NCBI RefSeq assembly: GCF_013410375.1 | Contig: NZ_JACCFL010000001.1 | Span: forward strand, 2,852,001-2,916,000 | Source of the DNA: Leifsonia shinshuensis | Lineage (GTDB): Bacteria > Actinomycetota > Actinomycetes > Actinomycetales > Microbacteriaceae | DNA length: 64,000 bases | Direction: 5' to 3' | In this document: positions 10,126 to 22,639 of the stretch, piece after piece | Layout of the letters: every line of letters starts with the position of its first letter | How positions within the stretch are numbered: position 1 is the first letter of the stretch | Made by a program: the position numbers and the translations under genes | The notes under the pieces: generated by a model | Database searches by the model: none | Told to the model about the DNA's origin: nothing | Seen by the model: only the letters and a program-made list of their open reading frames with translations

Positions 10126-11904
10126 ATGTCGCTCCCCATCGAGGATTACGCCCTGATCAGTGATTGCTTCACCGGGGCCCTCGTCGGACGGGACGGCAGC
10201 ATCGACTGGCTGTGCCTGCCGAGGTACGACTCGCAGTCCACCTTCGGCGCGCTGCTCGGCACGGAGGACCACGGCCGCTGGCTGCTCGCGCCCTCCGATC
10301 CCACAGCCACCAGCACGCGCCACTACGAGCGGGACACCATGATCCTGGTCACCCGCTGGCGCACCGCCACCGGCGAGGTGGAGGTCGTGGACGCCATGCC
10401 GATGGGCGACCACCGCGCCGACCTCGTGCGCCGGGTGCGCGGGGTGAGCGGCCAGGTGGAGCTGCGCGAGGAGCTGCGGATCCGCTTCGGCTACGCGACC
10501 GCCATCCCCTGGGTGCGCAGGATGACCGACCAGAAGCCGGCACCGCTCGTCGCGGTCGCCGGGCCGGACGGGCTGGTGTTCCGCGGCTCCGCTCTGCACC
10601 CGGCCGACCACGCGCACGAAGGCCGGTTCATCGTCAAGGCCGGCCAGACCGTCGACCTGTCGATGACCTGGTTCCCGTCGCACCGCGAGGCGCCGGCGGC
10701 CCTCGACGTCGAGACCTCGCTGCAGAACACCAGGAAGTGGTGGACGGACTGGGCGGACGGCTGCGACCACGACGGGCCGTACCGCGAGGAGGTCGTGCGC
10801 TCGCTGCTCATCCTGCGCGCGCTGACGCACCTGGAGACCGGCGGCATCGTCGCCGCGGCGACCACCTCCCTGCCGGAGAACTTCGGCGGGGAGCGCAACT
10901 GGGACTACCGCTACGTCTGGCTGCGCGACGCGTCGCTGACGATCGCCGTGCTGCTGGCGCACGGCTACGACGACTCGGTCGACCACTGGCGGGACTGGCT
11001 GCTGCGCGCGATCGCGGGCGACCCGGGCGACGTGCAGATCATGTACGGCCTCGCGGGCGAACGCGACCTCGCCGAGCGGGAGATCGACAGCCTGCCCGGC
11101 TACCAGGGCGCGCATCCGGTGCGGATCGGCAACGACGCGTCGACGCAGTTCCAGGCCGATGTGATCGGCGAGGTGATGCTGGCGCTCGACCACGGCCGCG
11201 AGGCAGGGGTGCAGGAGACCCGGTTCTCCTGGGCGCTGCAGCGCGCGCTGATGGGGTACCTGGAGCAGAACTGGCGCAAGCCCGACCACGGCATCTGGGA
11301 GATCCGCGGCGAGGAGCAGATGTTCACCCACTCCCGGGTGCTGGTGTGGGCGGCGTTCGACTGCGCGATCCGCGGCGTCGAGCAGTACGGCCTGGAGGGT
11401 CCGGTGGAGCGCTGGCGGCACCTGCGCGACCAGATCCGCGCCGACGTGGAGGCCAACGGCTTCGACGAGCACCGCGGCACGTACGTCCAGTACTTCGGCA
11501 CGACCGAGGTGGACGCCTCGCTGCTGCTGCTCCCGCAGGTCGGCTACTGCGCCTACGACGACCCCCGGATGCTCGGCACGGTGAAGGCGATCGAGGAGGA
11601 CCTGATGCGCGCCGGCCTCGCGCTGCGCTACCGCACCGAGAAGGGCGTCGACGGCCTCCCGCCCGGCGAGCATCCGTTCCTGGCGTGCTCGTTCTGGCTC
11701 GCCGAGCAGTACGCCCGCTCGCACCGCCTGGACGACGCTGTGCGCCTGATGGACCGGCTCGTCTCGCTGGCCAACGACGTCGGGATGCTCTCGGAGGAGT
11801 ACGACGTCGAGGGCCGGTCGCAGGTGGGCAACACGCCGCAGGCGCTCACCCACCTGGCGCTCGTGCGCGCCGCCGACGCCATCGCGGAGGCTCAGGCACG
11901 GTGA
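10126..11904 (+). CDS. Glycoside hydrolase family 15 protein (glucoamylase/trehalase-like)
   Basis: Cytoplasmic 592-residue GH15 enzyme without signal peptide. An N-terminal beta-rich domain (about residues 1-240, beginning IEDYALISDCFTGALVGRDGSIDWLCLPRYD) is followed by the alpha/alpha toroid. Family landmarks are NWDYRYVWLRDASLT and, near the end, GMLSEEYD...GNTPQALTHLAL, where the Glu pair provides the general base. Known bacterial members hydrolyse alpha-glucosides such as malto-oligosaccharides or trehalose; sequence alone does not decide. Its stop overlaps the clpS start (GTGA), giving translational coupling that is probably accidental in function. The zwf paralogue lies divergently, so released glucose could feed the pentose pathway, which is inference. 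Confidence 0.85.
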   Translation: MSLPIEDYALISDCFTGALVGRDGSIDWLCLPRYDSQSTFGALLGTEDHGRWLLAPSDPTATSTRHYERDTMILVTRWRTATGEVEVVDAMPMGDHRADLVRRVRGVSGQVELREELRIRFGYATAIPWVRRMTDQKPAPLVAVAGPDGLVFRGSALHPADHAHEGRFIVKAGQTVDLSMTWFPSHREAPAALDVETSLQNTRKWWTDWADGCDHDGPYREEVVRSLLILRALTHLETGGIVAAATTSLPENFGGERNWDYRYVWLRDASLTIAVLLAHGYDDSVDHWRDWLLRAIAGDPGDVQIMYGLAGERDLAEREIDSLPGYQGAHPVRIGNDASTQFQADVIGEVMLALDHGREAGVQETRFSWALQRALMGYLEQNWRKPDHGIWEIRGEEQMFTHSRVLVWAAFDCAIRGVEQYGLEGPVERWRHLRDQIRADVEANGFDEHRGTYVQYFGTTEVDASLLLLPQVGYCAYDDPRMLGTVKAIEEDLMRAGLALRYRTEKGVDGLPPGEHPFLACSFWLAEQYARSHRLDDAVRLMDRLVSLANDVGMLSEEYDVEGRSQVGNTPQALTHLALVRAADAIAEAQAR

Positions 11905-13980: not shown

Positions 13981-14025
13981 TTGACAGATCCGAGAACCGC
14001 GGCTACCGTCCTTTAAACCGGTTTA
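13981..14025 (+). promoter_or_regulatory. Promoter with overlapping LacI-type operator for the sugar operon
   Basis: TTGACA at 13981-13986 and TACCGT at 14004-14009 are spaced by 17 bases and form a good sigma-A promoter. The perfect palindrome TAAACCGGTTTA (14014-14025) covers the expected transcription start. A central CG step within such a palindrome is typical of LacI/GalR operators. The LacI gene is second in the operon, so simple repression with autoregulation is likely. Confidence 0.8.
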
Positions 14026-14084
14026 GACGTCACCCGTTCAGGGGTGGACGGGACCACACACGAAACGCAGAGACAGGAAACGCG

Positions 14085-16151
14085 ATGAAGCGGAATCGAC
14101 TCCTCGCCGCAGCGACGGGCGCCGCCCTCGCCGCCGCCGTGCTCGTCCCGGCGCTCGCCGCCCCGGCGGACGCCGCCCCCGCCCCCGCGGCCCCGGCCGC
14201 CCCCACCCTGACGAACCTCGCCCATCTGAATTTCCTCCTGGACGATGTGCCGTTGCTTCCCGGGGTCGCGGGTCACTCCACGTATCGGCAGAGCCAGGAG
14301 CCGACCGCGCGCGCCCCGTGGGTCTACGCGAACCGCAACGCCGACGGCAGCTTCACGCGGGTCGGCGGCGGCCCGATCACGAACGCCGCGAAGGGCTGGT
14401 ACGCGCAGGGGTCCTTCGACGCCGACGACATCTCCCGCGCGGCCGTGGTCTACCTCCGCGACTGGAGGCAGAACGGCACGGCCGCCAGCCGCGCCTCGGC
14501 CTACGAGCTGCTGCGCGAACTGACCTATCTGCAGGTCGACTCCGGACCGAACGCCGGCAATGTCGTGCTCTGGCAGCAGCACGACGGCACGCTGAACCCG
14601 TCCGCGATCCCGGCCGACCAGCCGAACCCGAGCGACTCGGCCGAGTCGTACTGGCTGGCGCGCACGGTCTGGGCGCTCGGCGAGGGTTACGCGGGCTTCC
14701 AGAAGTCCGACCCGGCGTTCGCGTCGTTCCTGCAGCAGCGGATGTCGCTCGCGCTCCGCTCGCTGGAGCGCCAGTCGCTCGCGAAGTACGGCACCACCGA
14801 GACGGCGAACGGCGTCACCGTGCCCGGCTGGCTCATCGTCGGCAGCGCCAGCCCGACGGCGGAGGCCGTGCTCGGCCTGAGCGCCTACACGGCCGCCGCG
14901 CCGGGCGACACCCCGGCGCGGACCGACCTCCAGAGCTACGCGAAGGGGATCGCCAGGCTCTCCTCCGGCGGCACCGGCCAGTGGCCGTTCGGCGCGCTGC
15001 TGCCCGAGGCGAACTCCCCCACCTTCTGGCACGCCTGGGGCGGCATGCAGCCGGCGGCGCTGACCGCGGCCGCCACGCAGCTCCACGACGGCGGCCTCCA
15101 GAACGCCGCGAACACCGACCTCGCGAGCTTCACCCCGCAGCTCCTCGCCAGCGGCGGCCCGGACAACGGCTGGACCCCGACCCCGGCCGACCCGTCGCAG
15201 ATCGCGTACGGTGTCGACTCCCGCGTGGAAGGCCTGGTCGCCGCCTCCGACGCGACCGGCTCGACCGGCCTCGCCACCCTCGCCGGCGCCCAGGCCGCCT
15301 GGTACTTCGGGGCCAACCCGGCCGGTGTCCCGGTCTACGACCCGGCCACCGGCGTCTGCGTCGACGGGATCGGCGGCGACGGCGGCGTCAACCACAACTG
15401 CGGCGCCGAGTCGGCCATCCACACCGAGCTGAGCATGCTCGCGCTGGACGCCCACCCGGCGATCAAGCGCGAGGCGCTGGCGCTGACGCACCGTTCCGCC
15501 GTCGACGGCCTCCAGGTCGTGGAGGCCGAGAAGGGCGCGCTCACCGGTCCGGCCACGGTCGTGACCCCGCCATCCGCGTGGACGGGCTCGGCCAACTGGT
15601 CGGGCGGCGCCTACGTCTCCGCCGCCACAGGCGCGACGGTCACGATGACGCTTCCCGCAGGCCACGCCGCCGCGCGCATCCTCCCGATCGAGGACCTCGG
15701 ACCCGACGGCACCGCCACGAGCGGGTCGGGCACGACGGCGTGGACGGCGAGCGCGGGCAACCGCACCGTGCAGCTCGGCACCAGCCAGAACGTACGCCCC
15801 GGCGCACAGGGGATCGCGCCCAGTCCGGTGTTCCTGCTGCCCCGGACCCTGCCGGTCTCCGCTCCCGCGGACGCGACCACGATCACGGCGCGCGTGAGCG
15901 GCCAGGGCCGCCTGGACGCGGTGCTCGTGCAGCCGGTGGTCTCGCACCTCGGCCTGACCGGATCCAGCAGCCTCGACGTCTACGTCAACGCCACCTCGGC
16001 GACGGTACCGCAGCACCTCGGCTCCTCCGGCCCGGTGCTCGCCACCCGCTACGACGCCTCCGGCCACCAGGTCGGCGCCCCGATCCCGTTGAACGGCCAC
16101 GGCACGGTCACGGTCGTGCCGGGCGGCTTCACCACGGTGGTGCCGCGATGA
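14085..16151 (+). CDS. Secreted protein, probable alpha/alpha-toroid glycan-active enzyme with C-terminal beta-sandwich
   Basis: First gene of the sugar operon, 688 residues. A signal peptide is clear: KR start, hydrophobic core (AAATGAALAAAVLVPALA), cleavage after an Ala-x-Ala near residue 30. Residues about 40-480 are helix-rich with repeated Trp/aromatic positions (WYAQGSFDADDISRAAVVYLRDW, ESYWLARTVWALGEGYAGF, FWHAWGGMQPAAL), ending in AAWYFGANPAG, which resembles the closing helix of (alpha/alpha)6 glycosidases such as GH9. Residues about 485-688 look like a beta-sandwich, starting VVEAEKGALTG and close to a carbohydrate-binding module in style. No family can be named with certainty. Its place before an importer and two GH130 enzymes argues that it cleaves an extracellular glycan. 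Start ATG 14085 follows GACAGGA. Confidence 0.7.
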   Translation: MKRNRLLAAATGAALAAAVLVPALAAPADAAPAPAAPAAPTLTNLAHLNFLLDDVPLLPGVAGHSTYRQSQEPTARAPWVYANRNADGSFTRVGGGPITNAAKGWYAQGSFDADDISRAAVVYLRDWRQNGTAASRASAYELLRELTYLQVDSGPNAGNVVLWQQHDGTLNPSAIPADQPNPSDSAESYWLARTVWALGEGYAGFQKSDPAFASFLQQRMSLALRSLERQSLAKYGTTETANGVTVPGWLIVGSASPTAEAVLGLSAYTAAAPGDTPARTDLQSYAKGIARLSSGGTGQWPFGALLPEANSPTFWHAWGGMQPAALTAAATQLHDGGLQNAANTDLASFTPQLLASGGPDNGWTPTPADPSQIAYGVDSRVEGLVAASDATGSTGLATLAGAQAAWYFGANPAGVPVYDPATGVCVDGIGGDGGVNHNCGAESAIHTELSMLALDAHPAIKREALALTHRSAVDGLQVVEAEKGALTGPATVVTPPSAWTGSANWSGGAYVSAATGATVTMTLPAGHAAARILPIEDLGPDGTATSGSGTTAWTASAGNRTVQLGTSQNVRPGAQGIAPSPVFLLPRTLPVSAPADATTITARVSGQGRLDAVLVQPVVSHLGLTGSSSLDVYVNATSATVPQHLGSSGPVLATRYDASGHQVGAPIPLNGHGTVTVVPGGFTTVVPR

Positions 16152-17170
16152 CGCCGGCCGACATCACGATCAACGACGTCGCACGAGCGGCGGGCGTGAG
16201 CAAGGGCCTGGTGTCCCTCGCGCTGAACGGCAAGCCCGGCGTGGCCCTGGACACCCGCGAGCGCATCCTCGCCGCCGCGCGGGAGCTCGGGTTCACCCCG
16301 AACCCGAGCGCCCGCGGGCTCACCACCCGGCGCGCCTACGCCCTCGGCCTCATCCTCCGCCGCGCCGCCCGCACCATCGAGGTCGACCCGTTCTTCGCGG
16401 CGTTCATCGCCGGCGTCGAGACCGTGCTCTCCGAGCGCGGCCAGGTGCTGGTGCTGACCGTGGTCCCCGACCACGAGGCGGAGGCGCGCGCCTACGAGCG
16501 CCTCGCCGCGGACAAGCGGGTCGACGGCTTCCTGCTCACCGACCTCCTCGCCGACGACCACCGCATCGCGCTGGTGCAGCGGTTCGGCTCCCAGGCGGTC
16601 TCGCTCGGCGAGCCCGTCGGCGGCAGCCCGTTCCCCGTCATCACGCGCGACTACGACGCCGGCATCGACGAGCTGGTGGCGCACCTGCTCGGCCTGGGCC
16701 ACCGGCGCATCGCGCACGTGTCCGGCGACGAGCGGATGCTGCACGGCCTCCGCCGCCGCGAGCGCTTCGAGCAGGCGATGCGGGCGGCGGGACTGAACCC
16801 CGTGATCGTCCCCACCGACTTCTCGCCGGAGCAGGGCGCCGAGGCCACCAAGACGCTCCTCGACTCCGCAGAGCCGCCGACCGCGATCGTCTACGGGAAC
16901 GACCCGATGGCGATCGCCGGCATGGGCGTCGCGCACGAGCGCGGCCTCCGGCTCCCCCACGACCTGTCCATCACCGGGCTGGACGGCTCCCAGATCGGGA
17001 CCTACATCTATCCGACCCTCACGACCCTGGACAACGACCCGGCCGGCTGGGGCATCGCCGCCGCCACCGCACTGCTGCGGCTGGTGGAGCACGGCGAGCC
17101 TGCCGACGTCGCCCTGCCCCCTGCCCGACTGGTGGTGCGCGCCTCCACGGCGCCGCCATCGCGTCACTGA
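16148..17170 (+). CDS. LacI family transcriptional regulator of the sugar operon
   Basis: A 340-residue repressor. The N-terminal HTH and hinge are typical (INDVARAAGVSKGLVSLALNGKPGV ... AARELGFTPNPSARGL), followed by a periplasmic-binding-protein-like core (about residues 65-335) ending with the usual ITGLDGSQIGTYIYPTLTTL block. The ATG overlaps the stop of the secreted protein gene (ATGA). Because it is inside the operon and a TAAACCGGTTTA palindrome covers the operon promoter, negative autoregulation is expected; the inducer should be the imported oligosaccharide or a breakdown product. Confidence 0.92.
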   Translation: MTPADITINDVARAAGVSKGLVSLALNGKPGVALDTRERILAAARELGFTPNPSARGLTTRRAYALGLILRRAARTIEVDPFFAAFIAGVETVLSERGQVLVLTVVPDHEAEARAYERLAADKRVDGFLLTDLLADDHRIALVQRFGSQAVSLGEPVGGSPFPVITRDYDAGIDELVAHLLGLGHRRIAHVSGDERMLHGLRRRERFEQAMRAAGLNPVIVPTDFSPEQGAEATKTLLDSAEPPTAIVYGNDPMAIAGMGVAHERGLRLPHDLSITGLDGSQIGTYIYPTLTTLDNDPAGWGIAAATALLRLVEHGEPADVALPPARLVVRASTAPPSRH

Positions 17171-17192
17171 AATCACGGAAAGAGCACACATC

Positions 17193-18503
17193 ATGCGCAA
17201 ACGCATCACCGGCTTCCGCAGACTCGCGGTCGCCGTCATCAGCGCCGGCGTCGTCGCCGGCACCCTCGCCGCCTGCGGCTCCAGCGGAGGAGGCGGACAG
17301 ACCGACGCCATGAAGGCGCACGGCCCGATCACCATCTGGTACTCGAACAACGCGCAGGAGGTGCAGTGGGGCAAGGCCATGGTGGCCTCCTGGAACTCCG
17401 CGCACCCCAAGGAGCAGATCAAGGCCCAGGAGGTCCCCGCCGGGAAGAGCACCGAGGAGGTCATCGGCGCCGCCATCACCGCGGGCACGACGCCCTGCCT
17501 GGTGTTCAACAACCTCCCGGCGGCTACCGGCCAGTGGCAGAAGCAGGGCGGCCTCGTCGACCTGTCGAAGTTCTCCGACGGCGCCTCCTACATCGAGTCC
17601 CGCAGCGGCAAAGCGGCCGACCAGTACAAGTCCCCTGACGGCGACTTCTACCAGATGCCGTGGAAGCAGAACCCGGTGATGATCTTCTACAACAAGGCGC
17701 TGTTCCAGAAGGCCGGCCTGGACCCGAGCAAGCCCGACCTGTCGACCTACGACAAGTTCCTCGCCGCGGCCCAGAAGATCAAGTCGTCCGGCGCCGCGCC
17801 GTACGCGATCTACCCGGCCCCGACGAGCGAGTTCTTCCAGCCGAACTTCGACTATCTGCCCCTGCTGGCCGCGCAGACCGGCGGCAAGACCTTCATCGAG
17901 AACGGCAAGTCGACGCTCACGAGCCAGGACTCGCTCGACGTGGCGAACTTCTGGAAGAGCATCTACGCCGACGGCCTCGCCGGCAAGGAGCAGTACCAGG
18001 GCGACGCCTTCGCCGACGGCAAGGCGGCCATGGCCATCGTCGGCCCGTGGGCCATCGCGTACTACGGCGACAAGATCCAGTGGGGCTCGGTGCCCGTCCC
18101 GACCAAGGACGGGAAGTCCGCCGACGAGACGTACACCTTCCCGGACGCCAAGAACATCGGGATGTACACCTCGTGCAAGAACCAGGGCACGGCCTGGGAC
18201 GTCATCAAGTACGCCACCTCGAAGGACCAGGACGGCAAGCTGCTGGACGTCACCGGCCAGATGCCGATCCGCTCCAACGTCGCGAGCGTCTACTCCAGCT
18301 ACTTCGACGCGCACCCCGCGTACAAGGAGTTCGGCGCCCAGAGCGAGCGCACCGCTGACGACCCGACGGGCACCAACACCATCGCCCAGCTGCAGGCCCT
18401 CCGCGACGCCTACTCCAAGGCGGTGATCAACGGCAACGGCTCGGTCGAGGACGCCTTCAAGGCCGCGTCCCAGAAGATCGACCAGCTCCAGGCTCAGAAG
18501 TAG
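17193..18503 (+). CDS. ABC sugar transporter, extracellular substrate-binding lipoprotein
   Basis: Cluster-B-type solute-binding lipoprotein of 436 residues. The lipobox ends TLAAC, after a hydrophobic signal (LAVAVISAGVVAG), and a Gly/Ser linker follows. The mature part opens with ITIWYSNNAQEVQWGKAMVASWN, the usual first strand and helix of CUT1 family binding proteins, and contains aromatic residues suited to stacking sugars (WKQNPVMIFYNKALF). It is followed after 2 bp by the first permease. With the two permeases it forms an importer; no dedicated ATPase is encoded here, so a shared MsiK-like ATPase elsewhere is expected, as is common in Actinobacteria. Confidence 0.92.
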   Translation: MRKRITGFRRLAVAVISAGVVAGTLAACGSSGGGGQTDAMKAHGPITIWYSNNAQEVQWGKAMVASWNSAHPKEQIKAQEVPAGKSTEEVIGAAITAGTTPCLVFNNLPAATGQWQKQGGLVDLSKFSDGASYIESRSGKAADQYKSPDGDFYQMPWKQNPVMIFYNKALFQKAGLDPSKPDLSTYDKFLAAAQKIKSSGAAPYAIYPAPTSEFFQPNFDYLPLLAAQTGGKTFIENGKSTLTSQDSLDVANFWKSIYADGLAGKEQYQGDAFADGKAAMAIVGPWAIAYYGDKIQWGSVPVPTKDGKSADETYTFPDAKNIGMYTSCKNQGTAWDVIKYATSKDQDGKLLDVTGQMPIRSNVASVYSSYFDAHPAYKEFGAQSERTADDPTGTNTIAQLQALRDAYSKAVINGNGSVEDAFKAASQKIDQLQAQK

Positions 18504-18505
18504 CC

Positions 18506-19462
18506 ATGAGCACCCTCTCCGCTCCCCCGGCGGCGGGCACCGCGCCCGCCGCCGGGACGGCCCCGCGGCGGCGCCCTCCCCTGGTGAGGCGCGTCCTCGG
18601 CAGCAACCCGCTCGGCTGGCTGTTCGCCGCGCCGTACCTGATCTTCGTCCTGCTGATCTTCGCGTACCCGCTGGTGTACGCGGTCTACATCTCGTTCTTC
18701 GACTACTTCTTCGCGGCCCCCGGCGCGCAGGTCACGCAGCCCTTCGTCGGCCTGCAGAACTACGTGCAGGTCTTCACCGACCCGGCCGTGATCCAGTCGT
18801 TCATCAACGTCGGGATCTTCCTGATCATCAACGTGCCGCTCACCGTGGTGCTGTCGCTGGTGCTCGCCAACGGGCTCAACAGCATCACGCGATTCCGGAC
18901 GTTCCTGCGCGTGAGCTACTACGTGCCGTACGTCACGGCGAGCGTCGCGATCATCGGCGTCTGGCTGTTCCTGTTCAACAGCACGGGACTGGTGAACCAG
19001 ATCCTCGGCCCGCTCGCCCCGAACCCGTCGTGGTTCGTCAACCCGGTGCTGGCGATGCCGACCATCGCGATCTACGTGACCTGGAAGCAGCTCGGCCTCT
19101 ACATCCTGCTGTACCTCGCGGCGCTGCAGAACGTGCCCCGCGAGCTGTACGAGTCGGCGGCGACCGACGGCGCCGGGCGGGTGCGGCAGTTCTTCTCCGT
19201 CACCGTGCCGGGCGTGCGTCCGGCGACGGTGCTGGTGCTGCTGCTGGCCACGATCACCGGCGCCAACCTCTTCACCGAGCCGTACCTCCTCACCGGGGGC
19301 GGCGGCCCGGACGGCCACTCGACCTCGCCGGTGCTCCTGATCTACCAGCAGGGCATCCAGCAGGGCCACCCGGGCTACGCCGCCGCGATCGGCGTCGTGC
19401 TCGTGATCCTGGTGCTGATCATCGGCTGGCTGCAGAACCGATTCGCGGGAGGACGCGACTGA
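18506..19462 (+). CDS. ABC sugar transporter permease (MalF-like)
   Basis: Inner-membrane permease of the CUT1 family, 318 residues. A disordered Ala/Pro-rich N-terminus leads to six predicted helices. The EAA loop that contacts the ATPase is seen as YESAATDGAGRVRQFFSVTVPGVRP (about residues 215-239). It starts 2 bp after the binding-protein stop, and its stop overlaps the next ATG by one base. It should pair with the following permease. Confidence 0.92.
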   Translation: MSTLSAPPAAGTAPAAGTAPRRRPPLVRRVLGSNPLGWLFAAPYLIFVLLIFAYPLVYAVYISFFDYFFAAPGAQVTQPFVGLQNYVQVFTDPAVIQSFINVGIFLIINVPLTVVLSLVLANGLNSITRFRTFLRVSYYVPYVTASVAIIGVWLFLFNSTGLVNQILGPLAPNPSWFVNPVLAMPTIAIYVTWKQLGLYILLYLAALQNVPRELYESAATDGAGRVRQFFSVTVPGVRPATVLVLLLATITGANLFTEPYLLTGGGGPDGHSTSPVLLIYQQGIQQGHPGYAAAIGVVLVILVLIIGWLQNRFAGGRD

Positions 19463-20391
19463 TGACCACCCTGAAGACCACGGGCGCGGACCCGGCGGCG
19501 CGCAGCCCGCGCGCTCCCCGGCAGCGCCGCCGCCGCGACCTGGCCGCCTCCACGCGGCTGAGCCGGCCGCAGGCGATCCTGCAGGGCGTCGTGCTGACGC
19601 TCGGCGCCATCGCCTTCCTGTTCCCCTTCTACTACATGCTGGTCGGGTCGCTGCAGGCGTCCCCGGACACCACCGTCGCCGGCGCGTTCCCGAACCCCGC
19701 CAACCTGACTCTGCACAACTACGCGGCGATCGACTCCCGGATCAACCTCTGGCAGGGGCTGGTCAACTCGGGCATCTTCACCGGCGGCGTGCTGCTGTTC
19801 ACGGTCGTGTTCGGGGTGCTCGCCGGGTACGCGCTCTCGATCCTGCAGTGGCGGGGCCGCGGGGTGACCTTCGCACTGGCGCTGCTGGTGCAGACCATCC
19901 CGTTCCAGCTGCTGATGATCCCGCTTTACGTGCTGATCGCGCGCAACTACGGGCTCGGCGACAGCTACCTGGGGATGATCCTGCCGTTCGCGATCAACTC
20001 GGCGGCGGTGCTGATCTTCCGGCAGTACTTCCTGCAGTTGCCGCGCGAGCTGTTCGACGCGGCGCGGATCGACGGCGCCGGGGAGTTCACGCTGCTCTGG
20101 CGCGTGGCGCTGCCGCTGGTGCGCCCGGCGCTGGTCACGGTGCTGCTGCTGACCTTCATCGGCCCGTGGAACGAGTTCCTCTGGCCGTTCCTGATCACGA
20201 AGGAGGCGAGCCTGCAGCCGCTGGCCGTCTCGCTGGCGAACTACATCAGCACGGTCGCGGCCTCCACGTCGAACCCGTACGGGGCGATCCTCGCCGGGGC
20301 CGTGGTGCTCGCCGCACCCGTCGTGGTGCTGTTCATCGTGTTCCAGCGCTACTTCACCTCCACCGACATCGGCTCCTCCGTCAAGGGCTGA
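19462..20391 (+). CDS. ABC sugar transporter permease (MalG-like)
   Basis: Second CUT1 permease of 309 residues with six predicted helices (first: GVVLTLGAIAFLFPFYYMLVGSL). The EAA loop reads FDAARIDGAGEFTLLWRVALPLVRP. The N-terminus is a basic, proline-rich 35 residues. Coupled to the upstream permease by a one-base overlap. Together with the binding protein it imports the sugar destined for the GH130 enzymes downstream. Confidence 0.92.
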   Translation: MTTLKTTGADPAARSPRAPRQRRRRDLAASTRLSRPQAILQGVVLTLGAIAFLFPFYYMLVGSLQASPDTTVAGAFPNPANLTLHNYAAIDSRINLWQGLVNSGIFTGGVLLFTVVFGVLAGYALSILQWRGRGVTFALALLVQTIPFQLLMIPLYVLIARNYGLGDSYLGMILPFAINSAAVLIFRQYFLQLPRELFDAARIDGAGEFTLLWRVALPLVRPALVTVLLLTFIGPWNEFLWPFLITKEASLQPLAVSLANYISTVAASTSNPYGAILAGAVVLAAPVVVLFIVFQRYFTSTDIGSSVKG

Positions 20392-20431
20392 GCCGGCCGC
20401 CCACCACCCGTCACGCAACGCAAGGAGAACC

Positions 20432-21442
20432 GTGGACGCCGTCTACACCGACGCCCTCCGCCTCAGCTACGAGGAGGCGCTGGGTCACTCCAACGCCCTC
20501 ACCGACCACATCTCGACCGACCACTTCTCGGCGAACTACGTCGACCCGCCGGACTGGGCGATCGGCCCGTTCCAGCGGGACCCGGCGCTCACCTTCCGGC
20601 TGGACGGCCAGTGGGACGACCCCACCGGCGTCGGCTGGACGAGCAGCGCGATCTTCAACCCGACGATGATCGAGCGCGACGGCGAGCTGCACCTGTTCTA
20701 CCGCGCCTCCCCGCGGATGGAGTCGCTGGCCAGCCGGATCGGCCACGCCGTCCGCCGGGACGGGGTGTGGCACGACGACCCGGCCAACCCGGTCGTCTAC
20801 CCGACGCTGCCCAACGAGCCGCTCGGCTGCGAGGACCCGAAGGTCTACGAGGCCGACAGACGGTATGTGCTGTTCTACAACGCCAATCGGCGGACGGAAG
20901 CGGGCGACATCGCCGTCGACATCATGGGAGCCGTCTCCGACGACCTGATGTCGTGGGAGAAGATCGGCCTCGTCGTGCCGCTCGAGGTGTCCCAGGACTG
21001 GGCGAAGGGCGCCGTCGTGCCGCGCGACGAGCACGGCCGCGCCGTGCGGATCGGCGGCGAGTACCTGATGTACCTCTCCGAGGGCTGCGGCGGCCGGCCG
21101 ATGATCGGCCACTCCGACGACCTGGTGTCCTGGACCTTCGCCGAGCAGCCCTACCTCGACCTGTCGCCGCTGTCCGGCAGCCTGTTCGAGGTCGCCTGCG
21201 CCGTGGTGCGCGGGGACGACCTCGTGCTGGACTTCTTCTACGCCGACGAGAACGGCGACTTCGCCGCGGCCCAGGCGCACTACTCCGTCGACGCCCCCTT
21301 CACGCAGACCGGCCTCCACCGCGGCGGCTCCCTCGCCTGGGGCGGCCTGCAGAGGCTGGACGGCCGCTGGTCGTTCGCGCAAGGCTGGGACGCTCCCCGA
21401 GGAGAGCGCGAACTCTACGTCTACAAGGAGGTCACGACGTGA
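20432..21442 (+). CDS. GH130-like glycosidase/phosphorylase (first of two)
   Basis: Intracellular five-bladed beta-propeller enzyme of 336 residues. AAGGAGAA precedes the GTG at 20432. Propeller blades are marked by FNPTMIERDGELHLFYRA and by GCEDPKVYEADRRYVLFYNA; the Asp of the EDP(R/K) motif is the proton donor in GH130. GH130 members act on beta-1,2- or beta-1,4-mannosides, as phosphorylases or hydrolases; an accompanying phosphate site cannot be judged by eye. It is less canonical than the next gene and may be from another subfamily or act on a different linkage. Its stop overlaps the next start by 4 bp. Confidence 0.8.
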   Translation: MDAVYTDALRLSYEEALGHSNALTDHISTDHFSANYVDPPDWAIGPFQRDPALTFRLDGQWDDPTGVGWTSSAIFNPTMIERDGELHLFYRASPRMESLASRIGHAVRRDGVWHDDPANPVVYPTLPNEPLGCEDPKVYEADRRYVLFYNANRRTEAGDIAVDIMGAVSDDLMSWEKIGLVVPLEVSQDWAKGAVVPRDEHGRAVRIGGEYLMYLSEGCGGRPMIGHSDDLVSWTFAEQPYLDLSPLSGSLFEVACAVVRGDDLVLDFFYADENGDFAAAQAHYSVDAPFTQTGLHRGGSLAWGGLQRLDGRWSFAQGWDAPRGERELYVYKEVTT

Positions 21443-22500
21443 CTGCCCCCTTCCCGTATGCACTCACCCGCGCCGGCGTGGTGATGACCCCCGACCCCGG
21501 CGAGCCGCTGGAGGCCGAGGGCGTGCTGAACCCCGCGTCCGGCCGCGACGCCGACGGCGAGCTGTACCTGCTGCCCCGGCTGGTCGCCGACGGCAACGTG
21601 TCCCGTGTGGGCCTCGCCCGGGTCGTCGTCGAGGGCGGCGTACCCGTCGGCGTCGAGCGGGAGGGGGTCGTGCTGGCGCCGGACCGCGACTTCGAGCGCG
21701 GCCGGCGCAACTCCGGGGTGGAGGATCCGCGCACCACGTTCGTGCCGGCCCTCGGCCTCCACGTGATGACCTACGTCGCCTACGGCCCGCTCGGGCCGCG
21801 CACCGCCGTCGCCGTCTCCTCCGACCTCCGGTCCTGGCAGCGCCTTGGGCCGGTGAGCTTCGAGTACGACGACGAGCTCGGCGTCGACCTGGCGCTGTTC
21901 CACAACAAGGACACCGTGTTCTTCCCGGAGCCGGTGACGGGACCGGACGGCGTGGAGAGCCTCGCGGTGCTGCACCGGCCGGTGTGGGACCTCGGCGAGG
22001 TCCGCGACGGCGAGGGCGCGCACCCGCCGACCGGACTGGAGGAGAAGCGGCCGAGCATCTGGATCGCGTTCATCCCCTTGGCCGCCGTGCGCGACGACCT
22101 CGGTGAGCTGGCCCGGTGGCGGCACAACCGGTTCCTGGCCGGCCCGGAGTTCCCGTTCGAGGAGCTGAAGATCGGCGCCGGACCCGCGCCGGTGCGCGTG
22201 CCGGAGGGCTGGCTGCTGCTGCACCACGGCGTCACCGGCCGCCTGGAGCGCGGCGTCGACCAGCAGAAGCACGTCAACTACGCCGCCGGCGCGATGATCC
22301 TCGACGCCGACGAGCCGTGGAAGGTCGTCCAGCGCACCGCCGAGCCGCTGCTGAGCGCGGAGACCGAGGAGGAGCGCAGCGGCATCGTGCCGAACGTGGT
22401 GTTCCCCACCGCGATCGAGCGGGTGGGCGAGACCGATTGGGTGTTCTACGGGATGGCGGACTCCAAGATCGGGGTCGCGAAGCTGGAGCGGGTGGGCTGA
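21439..22500 (+). CDS. GH130 family glycosidase/phosphorylase (second of two)
   Basis: Cytoplasmic beta-propeller enzyme of 353 residues, start GTG 21439 coupled to the previous stop. GH130 landmarks are strong: GVEDPRTTF (catalytic Asp), HNKDTVFFPEPV, WLLLHHGVTG, SGIVPNVVFPTAIE and the closing YGMADSKIGVA. Together with the first enzyme it should degrade the imported oligosaccharide, releasing mannose-1-phosphate if it is a phosphorylase. A mannoside substrate is family knowledge; the exact linkage is unknown. It is the last gene of the operon, followed by a strong hairpin 10 bp on. Confidence 0.88.
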   Translation: MTAPFPYALTRAGVVMTPDPGEPLEAEGVLNPASGRDADGELYLLPRLVADGNVSRVGLARVVVEGGVPVGVEREGVVLAPDRDFERGRRNSGVEDPRTTFVPALGLHVMTYVAYGPLGPRTAVAVSSDLRSWQRLGPVSFEYDDELGVDLALFHNKDTVFFPEPVTGPDGVESLAVLHRPVWDLGEVRDGEGAHPPTGLEEKRPSIWIAFIPLAAVRDDLGELARWRHNRFLAGPEFPFEELKIGAGPAPVRVPEGWLLLHHGVTGRLERGVDQQKHVNYAAGAMILDADEPWKVVQRTAEPLLSAETEEERSGIVPNVVFPTAIERVGETDWVFYGMADSKIGVAKLERVG

Positions 22501-22509
22501 CCCCCGGCG

Positions 22510-22566
22510 ACATTCCGCACGAATGTCGACGTTCGCCGCGTCAGAGTCGACATTCGTGAGGAATGT
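22510..22566 (+). terminator. Hairpin terminator of the sugar operon
   Basis: Arms at 22510-22530 and 22546-22566 are complementary over 21 bases with one mismatch (ACATTCCGCACGAATG... against ...CATTCGTGAGGAATGT), with a 15-base loop. It begins 10 bp after the last operon stop. No T-run, as usual in high-GC Actinobacteria. Confidence 0.75.
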
Positions 22567-22639
22567 GACCGTTCTGGGACATGATGTCGAGATGACACCT
22601 CCCCGTTCGTACGAAAGGTGAGAGGAAGGAATCACGACC

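Follow-up and report, generated by a model that had tools for sequence, protein, structure and literature searches.

A secreted toroid protein encoded with two GH130 enzymes in Leifsonia shinshuensis: a candidate member of a new family of mannan-active glycosidases

Results

An operon for a candidate glycan-active protein, an importer and two GH130 enzymes

We analyzed a 64,000-nucleotide stretch of Leifsonia shinshuensis DNA (hereafter the window), corresponding to G000:C1:2852001-2916000 of the 4.42 Mb genome. On the plus strand of the window, between positions 14085 and 22500, lies an operon encoding, in this order, a protein that we refer to as HYP, a LacI-family regulator, the solute-binding protein and two permeases of an ATP-binding cassette (ABC) importer, and two GH130 proteins, GH130a and GH130b (Table 1). 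The list of open reading frames (ORFs) and the domain search showed the genes to overlap or sit close together. The operon exists as described, and it is more than a chance assembly, as this set of genes is found again both in relatives and in unrelated genomes (see below). An initial annotation, made from the sequence, had considered the importer complete except for its ATPase; indeed, neither the ORFs nor the domain search yielded an ATPase gene within the operon. Genome-wide, the best UgpC-like ATPase (55% identity) is encoded at G000:C1:1527749-1528633, approximately 1.3 Mb from the operon.

Table 1. Features of the operon, in window coordinates, and loci of related fusion genes. Residue numbers of GH130b count from base 21442; its GTG start at 21439 was read by eye.
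Feature	Position	Strand	Basis
Promoter-like TTGACA (13981-13986), 17 nt spacer, TACCGT (14004-14009)	13981-14009	+	By eye
Palindrome TTTAAACCGGTTTA, operator candidate	14012-14025	.	Pattern searches of window and genome
HYP, 688 aa, signal-peptide-like N-terminus (by eye)	14085-16151	+	ORF, PDB match, fold model, alignment
LacI-family regulator	16151-17170	+	PF00356, PF13377
ABC importer solute-binding protein (SBP_bac_1)	17193-18503	+	PF01547
ABC permease, first	18506-19462	+	PF00528
ABC permease, second	19459-20391	+	PF00528
GH130a, hydrolase-type residues D135, K192, E217, E253	20432-21442	+	PF04041, 52.8 bits
GH130b, phosphorylase-type residues D95, K156, R179, K243, H262	about 21439-22500	+	PF04041, 105.7 bits
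Strong hairpin after last gene, without T-tract	22505-22571	+	Folding, terminator scan
GT4-HYP fusions beside GH130	L147:2812-9939, L145:4028-8407, L143:1309-7035, L144:4756-8931

HYP belongs to a large toroid family with invariant acidic residues

The initial annotation could place the first protein of the operon in no known family. This holds for the family libraries tried, as HYP matched nothing in Pfam, even at E <= 1, or in NCBIfam. HYP is no orphan, however: at least 2,182 homologous proteins were found among the matches listed, the nearest being Leifsonia proteins with 98% identity, and the comparison with PDB entry 7tem gave an E-value of 2e-24. Sequence and fold homology together place HYP in the toroid family of 7tem. 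Public records list two of the homologs (P0086 and P0099) as "uroporphyrinogen decarboxylase", apparently a misannotation that has been propagated.

Fold prediction and fold search agreed with the toroid-plus-beta-sandwich architecture initially proposed: the model comprises a predicted (alpha/alpha)6 toroid (residues ~41-467), a CBM35/CBM6-like sandwich (~474-619) and a small beta tail. In an alignment of 84 sequences, 21 rows of which are short relatives with 22-26% identity, four columns reach 95% acidic residues or more, and each of them is invariant (D114, D115, D427 and E442), in line with the conserved acidic pair that the annotation had proposed to look for. The consecutive pair D114-D115 sits at a helix start. 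More generally, conserved positions (D114, D115, R118; W190, R193; Q372; N436 to S443) fall at or close to the N-terminal ends of helices predicted at 113-130, 189-205, 374-391 and 441-455, an arrangement that fits one end of the modeled toroid. The only invariant histidine is H47, the next histidine column reaching 75%.

Among the close fold matches of the model were GH76 and MmpH. Membership of HYP in GH76 lacks sequence support despite the closeness of fold: no match to PF03663 appeared in the Pfam search at E <= 1, and hhalign gave 14-21% probability against GH76 rows, a set that was small and partly faulty, with the DD pairs unaligned. Insecticidal proteins, seed globulins and a phage tail protein also appeared in the fold lists and were taken as shared folds only. 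The best reading of these data is that HYP belongs to an uncharacterized family of mannan-active glycosidases.

The two GH130 proteins differ in their phosphate-site residues

Both putative propeller proteins were confirmed as GH130, with scores against PF04041 (Table 1) above the curated cut-off of 26 bits and concordant PDB matches; the Pfam match of GH130a covers residues 71-240 only. Residue conservation was counted over plus-strand matches of at least 50% identity and sufficient length, free of stops. By this count, the phosphorylase-type residues of GH130b are each kept in at least 97% of 53 sequences, and the hydrolase-type residues of GH130a in at least 97% of 26 sequences. The catalytic aspartate of the EDP motif corresponds to D135 in GH130a and D95 in GH130b, the two being aligned together. 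GH130b has the basic phosphate-binding residues R179, K243 and H262. In GH130a, two glutamates, E217 and E253, replace the phosphate-binding residues and pair with those of hydrolase-type entries. According to PMC4599007 (like PMC4264767, PMC8950772 and PMC9883506 below, cited from excerpts), hydrolases carry Glu227 and Glu268 instead of the basic residues. GH130b is thus probably of the phosphorylase type and GH130a of the hydrolase type, consistent with the initial claim of two different GH130 enzymes.

The best PDB matches of GH130b were the beta-1,2-mannoside phosphorylases 7fip and 9fj8, with beta-1,4 enzymes close behind. GH130a matched best the unassigned glycosidases 3r67, 4onz and 3qc2, and its glutamates were paired in the 3r67 alignment. 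The profiles of GH130a and GH130b aligned over only 105 columns. In the excerpt of PMC4599007, Lys199 marks beta-1,2-mannose specificity and is reported absent from beta-1,4 enzymes. Both operon proteins keep this lysine, that of GH130a falling one column off in the multiple GH130 alignment. Together with a GT108-like gene in a related operon (see below), these residues favor beta-1,2-mannosides over the beta-1,4-mannan of plants. The beta-mannoside substrate initially suggested is retained as regards the tie of HYP to GH130 and mannose, with beta-1,2 as its most likely linkage.

HYP and GH130 genes travel together

In 17 of 20 larger stretches examined, HYP was accompanied by matches to GH130, LacI and permease. 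The remaining three carry members of the short branch described below, with GH130 nearby in L060 and L061 and no match in L059. A wider sample consisted of the best 80 of 312 loci and leans to close relatives. It contained relatives of GH130b in 54 loci, of LacI in 56, of the solute-binding protein in 53 and of GH130a in 25, the LacI and permease counts including some unrelated matches at about 30% identity. A hidden Markov model search found GH130 in 55 of the 80. Most of the 25 loci without it (22) are from Cryobacterium, and all 23 that were checked genome-wide (all but L080 and L106) have GH130 elsewhere. One of the Cryobacterium loci, L091:9866-11947, has HYP on its own, surrounded by unrelated genes, and GH130 is encoded at another site of the genome.

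At the level of genomes, relatives of HYP were present in at least 36 of 296 members of the class (22 of the long type, 14 short or weak), a lower bound with at most three candidates scored per genome. GH130 was found in 68 of the 296. The two co-occurred in 34 of the 36 (Fisher 2.7e-23, kinship ignored) and lay within 10 kb of each other in 33. The exceptions are G068 and G315, without a GH130 match, and G148, whose GH130 is 2 Mb from HYP. All 22 genomes with a long-type HYP, from 13 genera, have GH130 within 10 kb; nine of them belong to one genus, and the matches in G046, G204 and G322 are partial. Four operons (L048, L049, L050 and L058) carry a different GH130 with hydrolase residues. It scored best against the beta-1,2-mannosidase model in L049 and L058 and gave a tie in L050, all below the cut-off in a scan covering these three.

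Relatives of HYP in mannose 1-phosphate contexts

In another phylum, a plasmid of Sphingomonas hankookensis (L142:6574-15388) carries an operon matching that of Leifsonia, plus a DUF1861 gene. LacI and ugpC lie on one strand; a HYP relative (29% identity), the solute-binding protein, two permeases, GH130 and DUF1861 lie on the other. The GH130 has an arginine at the position of the beta-1,2 lysine and scored 431.6 bits against NF050092 "BtaManbiosPhlase" (cut-off 550). The DUF1861 protein matched the structures of Leishmania MPT-4, MPT-2 and MPT-1 (E 4e-51 to 2e-43), which we take to be GT108 mannogen enzymes. The GT108 mannogen enzymes of Leishmania are described in PMC8950772. No DUF1861 match was obtained in the genome of the window or in the 296 actinomycetes, a search in which no control matched, so that absence is not established.

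A short branch of HYP relatives (~340-360 aa, no signal peptide by eye) comprises at least 3,761 proteins among the matches listed, which may overlap with the HYP homologs counted above. In L060 and L061 the short relative lies between a glycosyltransferase-like gene, recognized by eye, and GH130; in L059 it adjoins such a gene without GH130. Twenty-seven plasmid records matched the short relative P0121. In all five inspected, the matching region forms the end of a protein bearing the annotation "glycosyltransferase family 4", and in four GH130 adjoins it or is one gene off. Two of the five (Devosia and Sphingobium) have mannose-phosphate genes, the Sphingobium record also phosphomannomutase and groES/groEL. 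Pfam confirmed the glycosyltransferase domain in both fusion proteins scanned, and two of the fusion loci in Table 1 contain mannose-6-phosphate isomerase or further mannose-phosphate genes. GH130 proteins associated with GT4 have Q or H at the position of K243; their phosphate site therefore differs. As judged from these gene contexts, the short branch ties the HYP domain to mannose 1-phosphate chemistry and suggests a candidate mannogen-like bacterial cycle. Together with the 22 long-type genomes and the Sphingomonas operon with its MPT relative, the GT4-fused relatives support the proposed connection of HYP with GH130 and with the metabolism of mannose.

Sequences flanking the operon

The LacI palindrome of the initial annotation is present upstream of HYP. 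TTTAAACCGGTTTA, for which 0.02 chance matches were expected in the window at up to two mismatches, occupies a single place genome-wide at up to one mismatch, where it is matched on both strands. On this basis, a wider regulon of the operator was rejected. The palindrome core AAACCGGTTT was found upstream of HYP in all nine loci of Leifsonia and Diaminobutyricibacter (L062-L070), and exact copies of the core plus one base (TAAACCGGTTT or AAACCGGTTTA) are present in 18 of the 80 loci overall. Presumably, the palindrome is the operator for the operon's own LacI. A consensus promoter scan gave no entry for the promoter-like pair ahead of it. At the other end, the annotated terminator stands only as a very stable hairpin (-39.3 kcal/mol, z -5.26): it has no T-tract, and the scan for intrinsic terminators found none. 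Matches to the hairpin arm as a repeat within the window were not above chance. Upstream of the operon, the ORF at 10126-11904 resembles a GH15-type glycosidase by eye.

Discussion

Gene content, operator sequence, predicted folds, residue patterns and conserved linkage were computed here. They lead us to propose, with a probability of roughly 60%, a LacI-controlled operon for the use of a beta-mannoside polymer, most likely beta-1,2-linked. HYP would be exported and would grip the polymer by its CBM-like sandwich. The toroid, probably a glycoside hydrolase, would then cut it with the help of some of D114, D115, D427 and E442. Within this scheme, we are least sure of the linkage that HYP would cut. 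The resulting oligosaccharides would enter through the solute-binding protein and the two permeases, with a shared UgpC/MsiK-type ATPase, encoded outside the operon, supplying the energy. Once they are in the cytoplasm, GH130b would split beta-1,2-mannosides with phosphate to give mannose 1-phosphate, and GH130a would hydrolyze other beta-1,2-mannosides. Imported sugar would free LacI from its single operator. Thus, the initial annotation is upheld as to the fold, the conserved acids, GH130 and the mannose link, and not as to the terminator; its unplaced first protein proves to have many relatives.

Several observations weigh against the proposed pathway. Neither GH130a nor GH130b comes close to the cut-offs set for the NCBIfam activity models, GH130a being in a near tie between the phosphorylase model (69.9 bits) and the hydrolase (BT3780) model (68.1 bits), and the toroid mannanases close in fold to HYP cut alpha links. 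Because of this last point, and because GT4, to which the short branch is fused, is a retaining family, expected to form alpha links, the main rival is a HYP acting as alpha-mannosidase or endo-alpha-mannanase on a mixed-linkage heteromannan, with the beta-mannosyl portions of the imported fragments left to the GH130 enzymes. The close folds do include GH76 (alpha-1,6) and MmpH (alpha-1,4; PMC9883506). However, HYP has no profile-level link to GH76, each HYP operon type inspected has a GH130 with beta-mannoside features, and the Leifsonia genome gave no match to GH76 or GH92; we regard this alternative as unlikely. The same lack of matches, although not decisive, disfavors classical yeast alpha-mannan as the substrate.

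Action of HYP on plant beta-1,4-mannan or glucomannan seems highly improbable, given that both GH130 proteins keep the lysine reported absent from beta-1,4 enzymes (PMC4599007, excerpt). We give still less credence to HYP being an epimerase, such as a sugar 2-epimerase, or another non-hydrolytic toroid protein, since it would be unusual for an epimerase to be secreted and to carry a CBM-like module. AGE epimerases have the toroid fold and two catalytic histidines. One of them was the top functionally named fold match of HYP, but the alignment offers H47 instead of an invariant histidine pair.

For beta-1,2-mannosides, both phosphorylases and hydrolases of GH130 have been described. To our knowledge, the outer depolymerase is missing from the GH130 pathway, and the extracellular release of GH130 substrates and the soil source of beta-1,2-mannan are open questions. 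There is a real chance that the HYP family is a new enzyme family. More tentatively, HYP could found a new GH family as a secreted beta-1,2-mannan depolymerase, with the GT4-fused domain serving an undescribed bacterial mannogen-like reserve cycle, a combination that we consider possible rather than probable. If so, one enzyme family would serve both the breakdown and the storage of beta-mannan. A large family with a solved but unexplained structure now has a substrate prediction that can be tested. If the prediction holds, HYP would offer a tool enzyme for beta-1,2-mannans, for example those of Candida (PMC4599007) or the reserve mannogen of Leishmania (PMC8950772), and a clue to storage of the mannogen type in bacteria. 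A literature search over titles and the starts of abstracts, with names containing commas and subscription papers outside its reach, returned no characterized function for the toroid family and no secreted toroid enzyme paired with GH130; nothing was found on GH130 with Leifsonia, nor any paper under the name YPO2471.

That name belongs to the structural relative 7tem ("Putative exported protein YPO2471"), whose chain of ~427 residues lacks the C-terminal sandwich of HYP and whose title gives no function. The GH76 alpha-1,6-mannanases and the alpha-1,4-endomannosidase MmpH, the latter from a different toroid family (PMC9883506), share 6-15% identity with HYP and cut alpha links. The GT108 mannogen enzymes of Leishmania (PMC8950772) have their relative, DUF1861, in the Sphingomonas operon. 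With the BT3780-type GH130 beta-1,2-mannosidase (PMC4599007), GH130a shares both hydrolase-position glutamates and the lysine, yet it is divergent, reaching 68.1 bits where the BT3780 model requires 550 and with Pfam coverage limited to 71-240. GH130b shares the phosphate-binding set and the lysine with the beta-1,2-mannoside phosphorylases Teth514_1788/1789 (PMC4264767), while scoring 103 bits against the NCBIfam phosphorylase model (cut-off 450). In the excerpted description, the Teth514_1788/1789 cluster likewise combines an importer with two GH130 enzymes, and also a GH5 and two "hypothetical" proteins (PMC4264767); the Leifsonia operon is thus of a type already known in kind.

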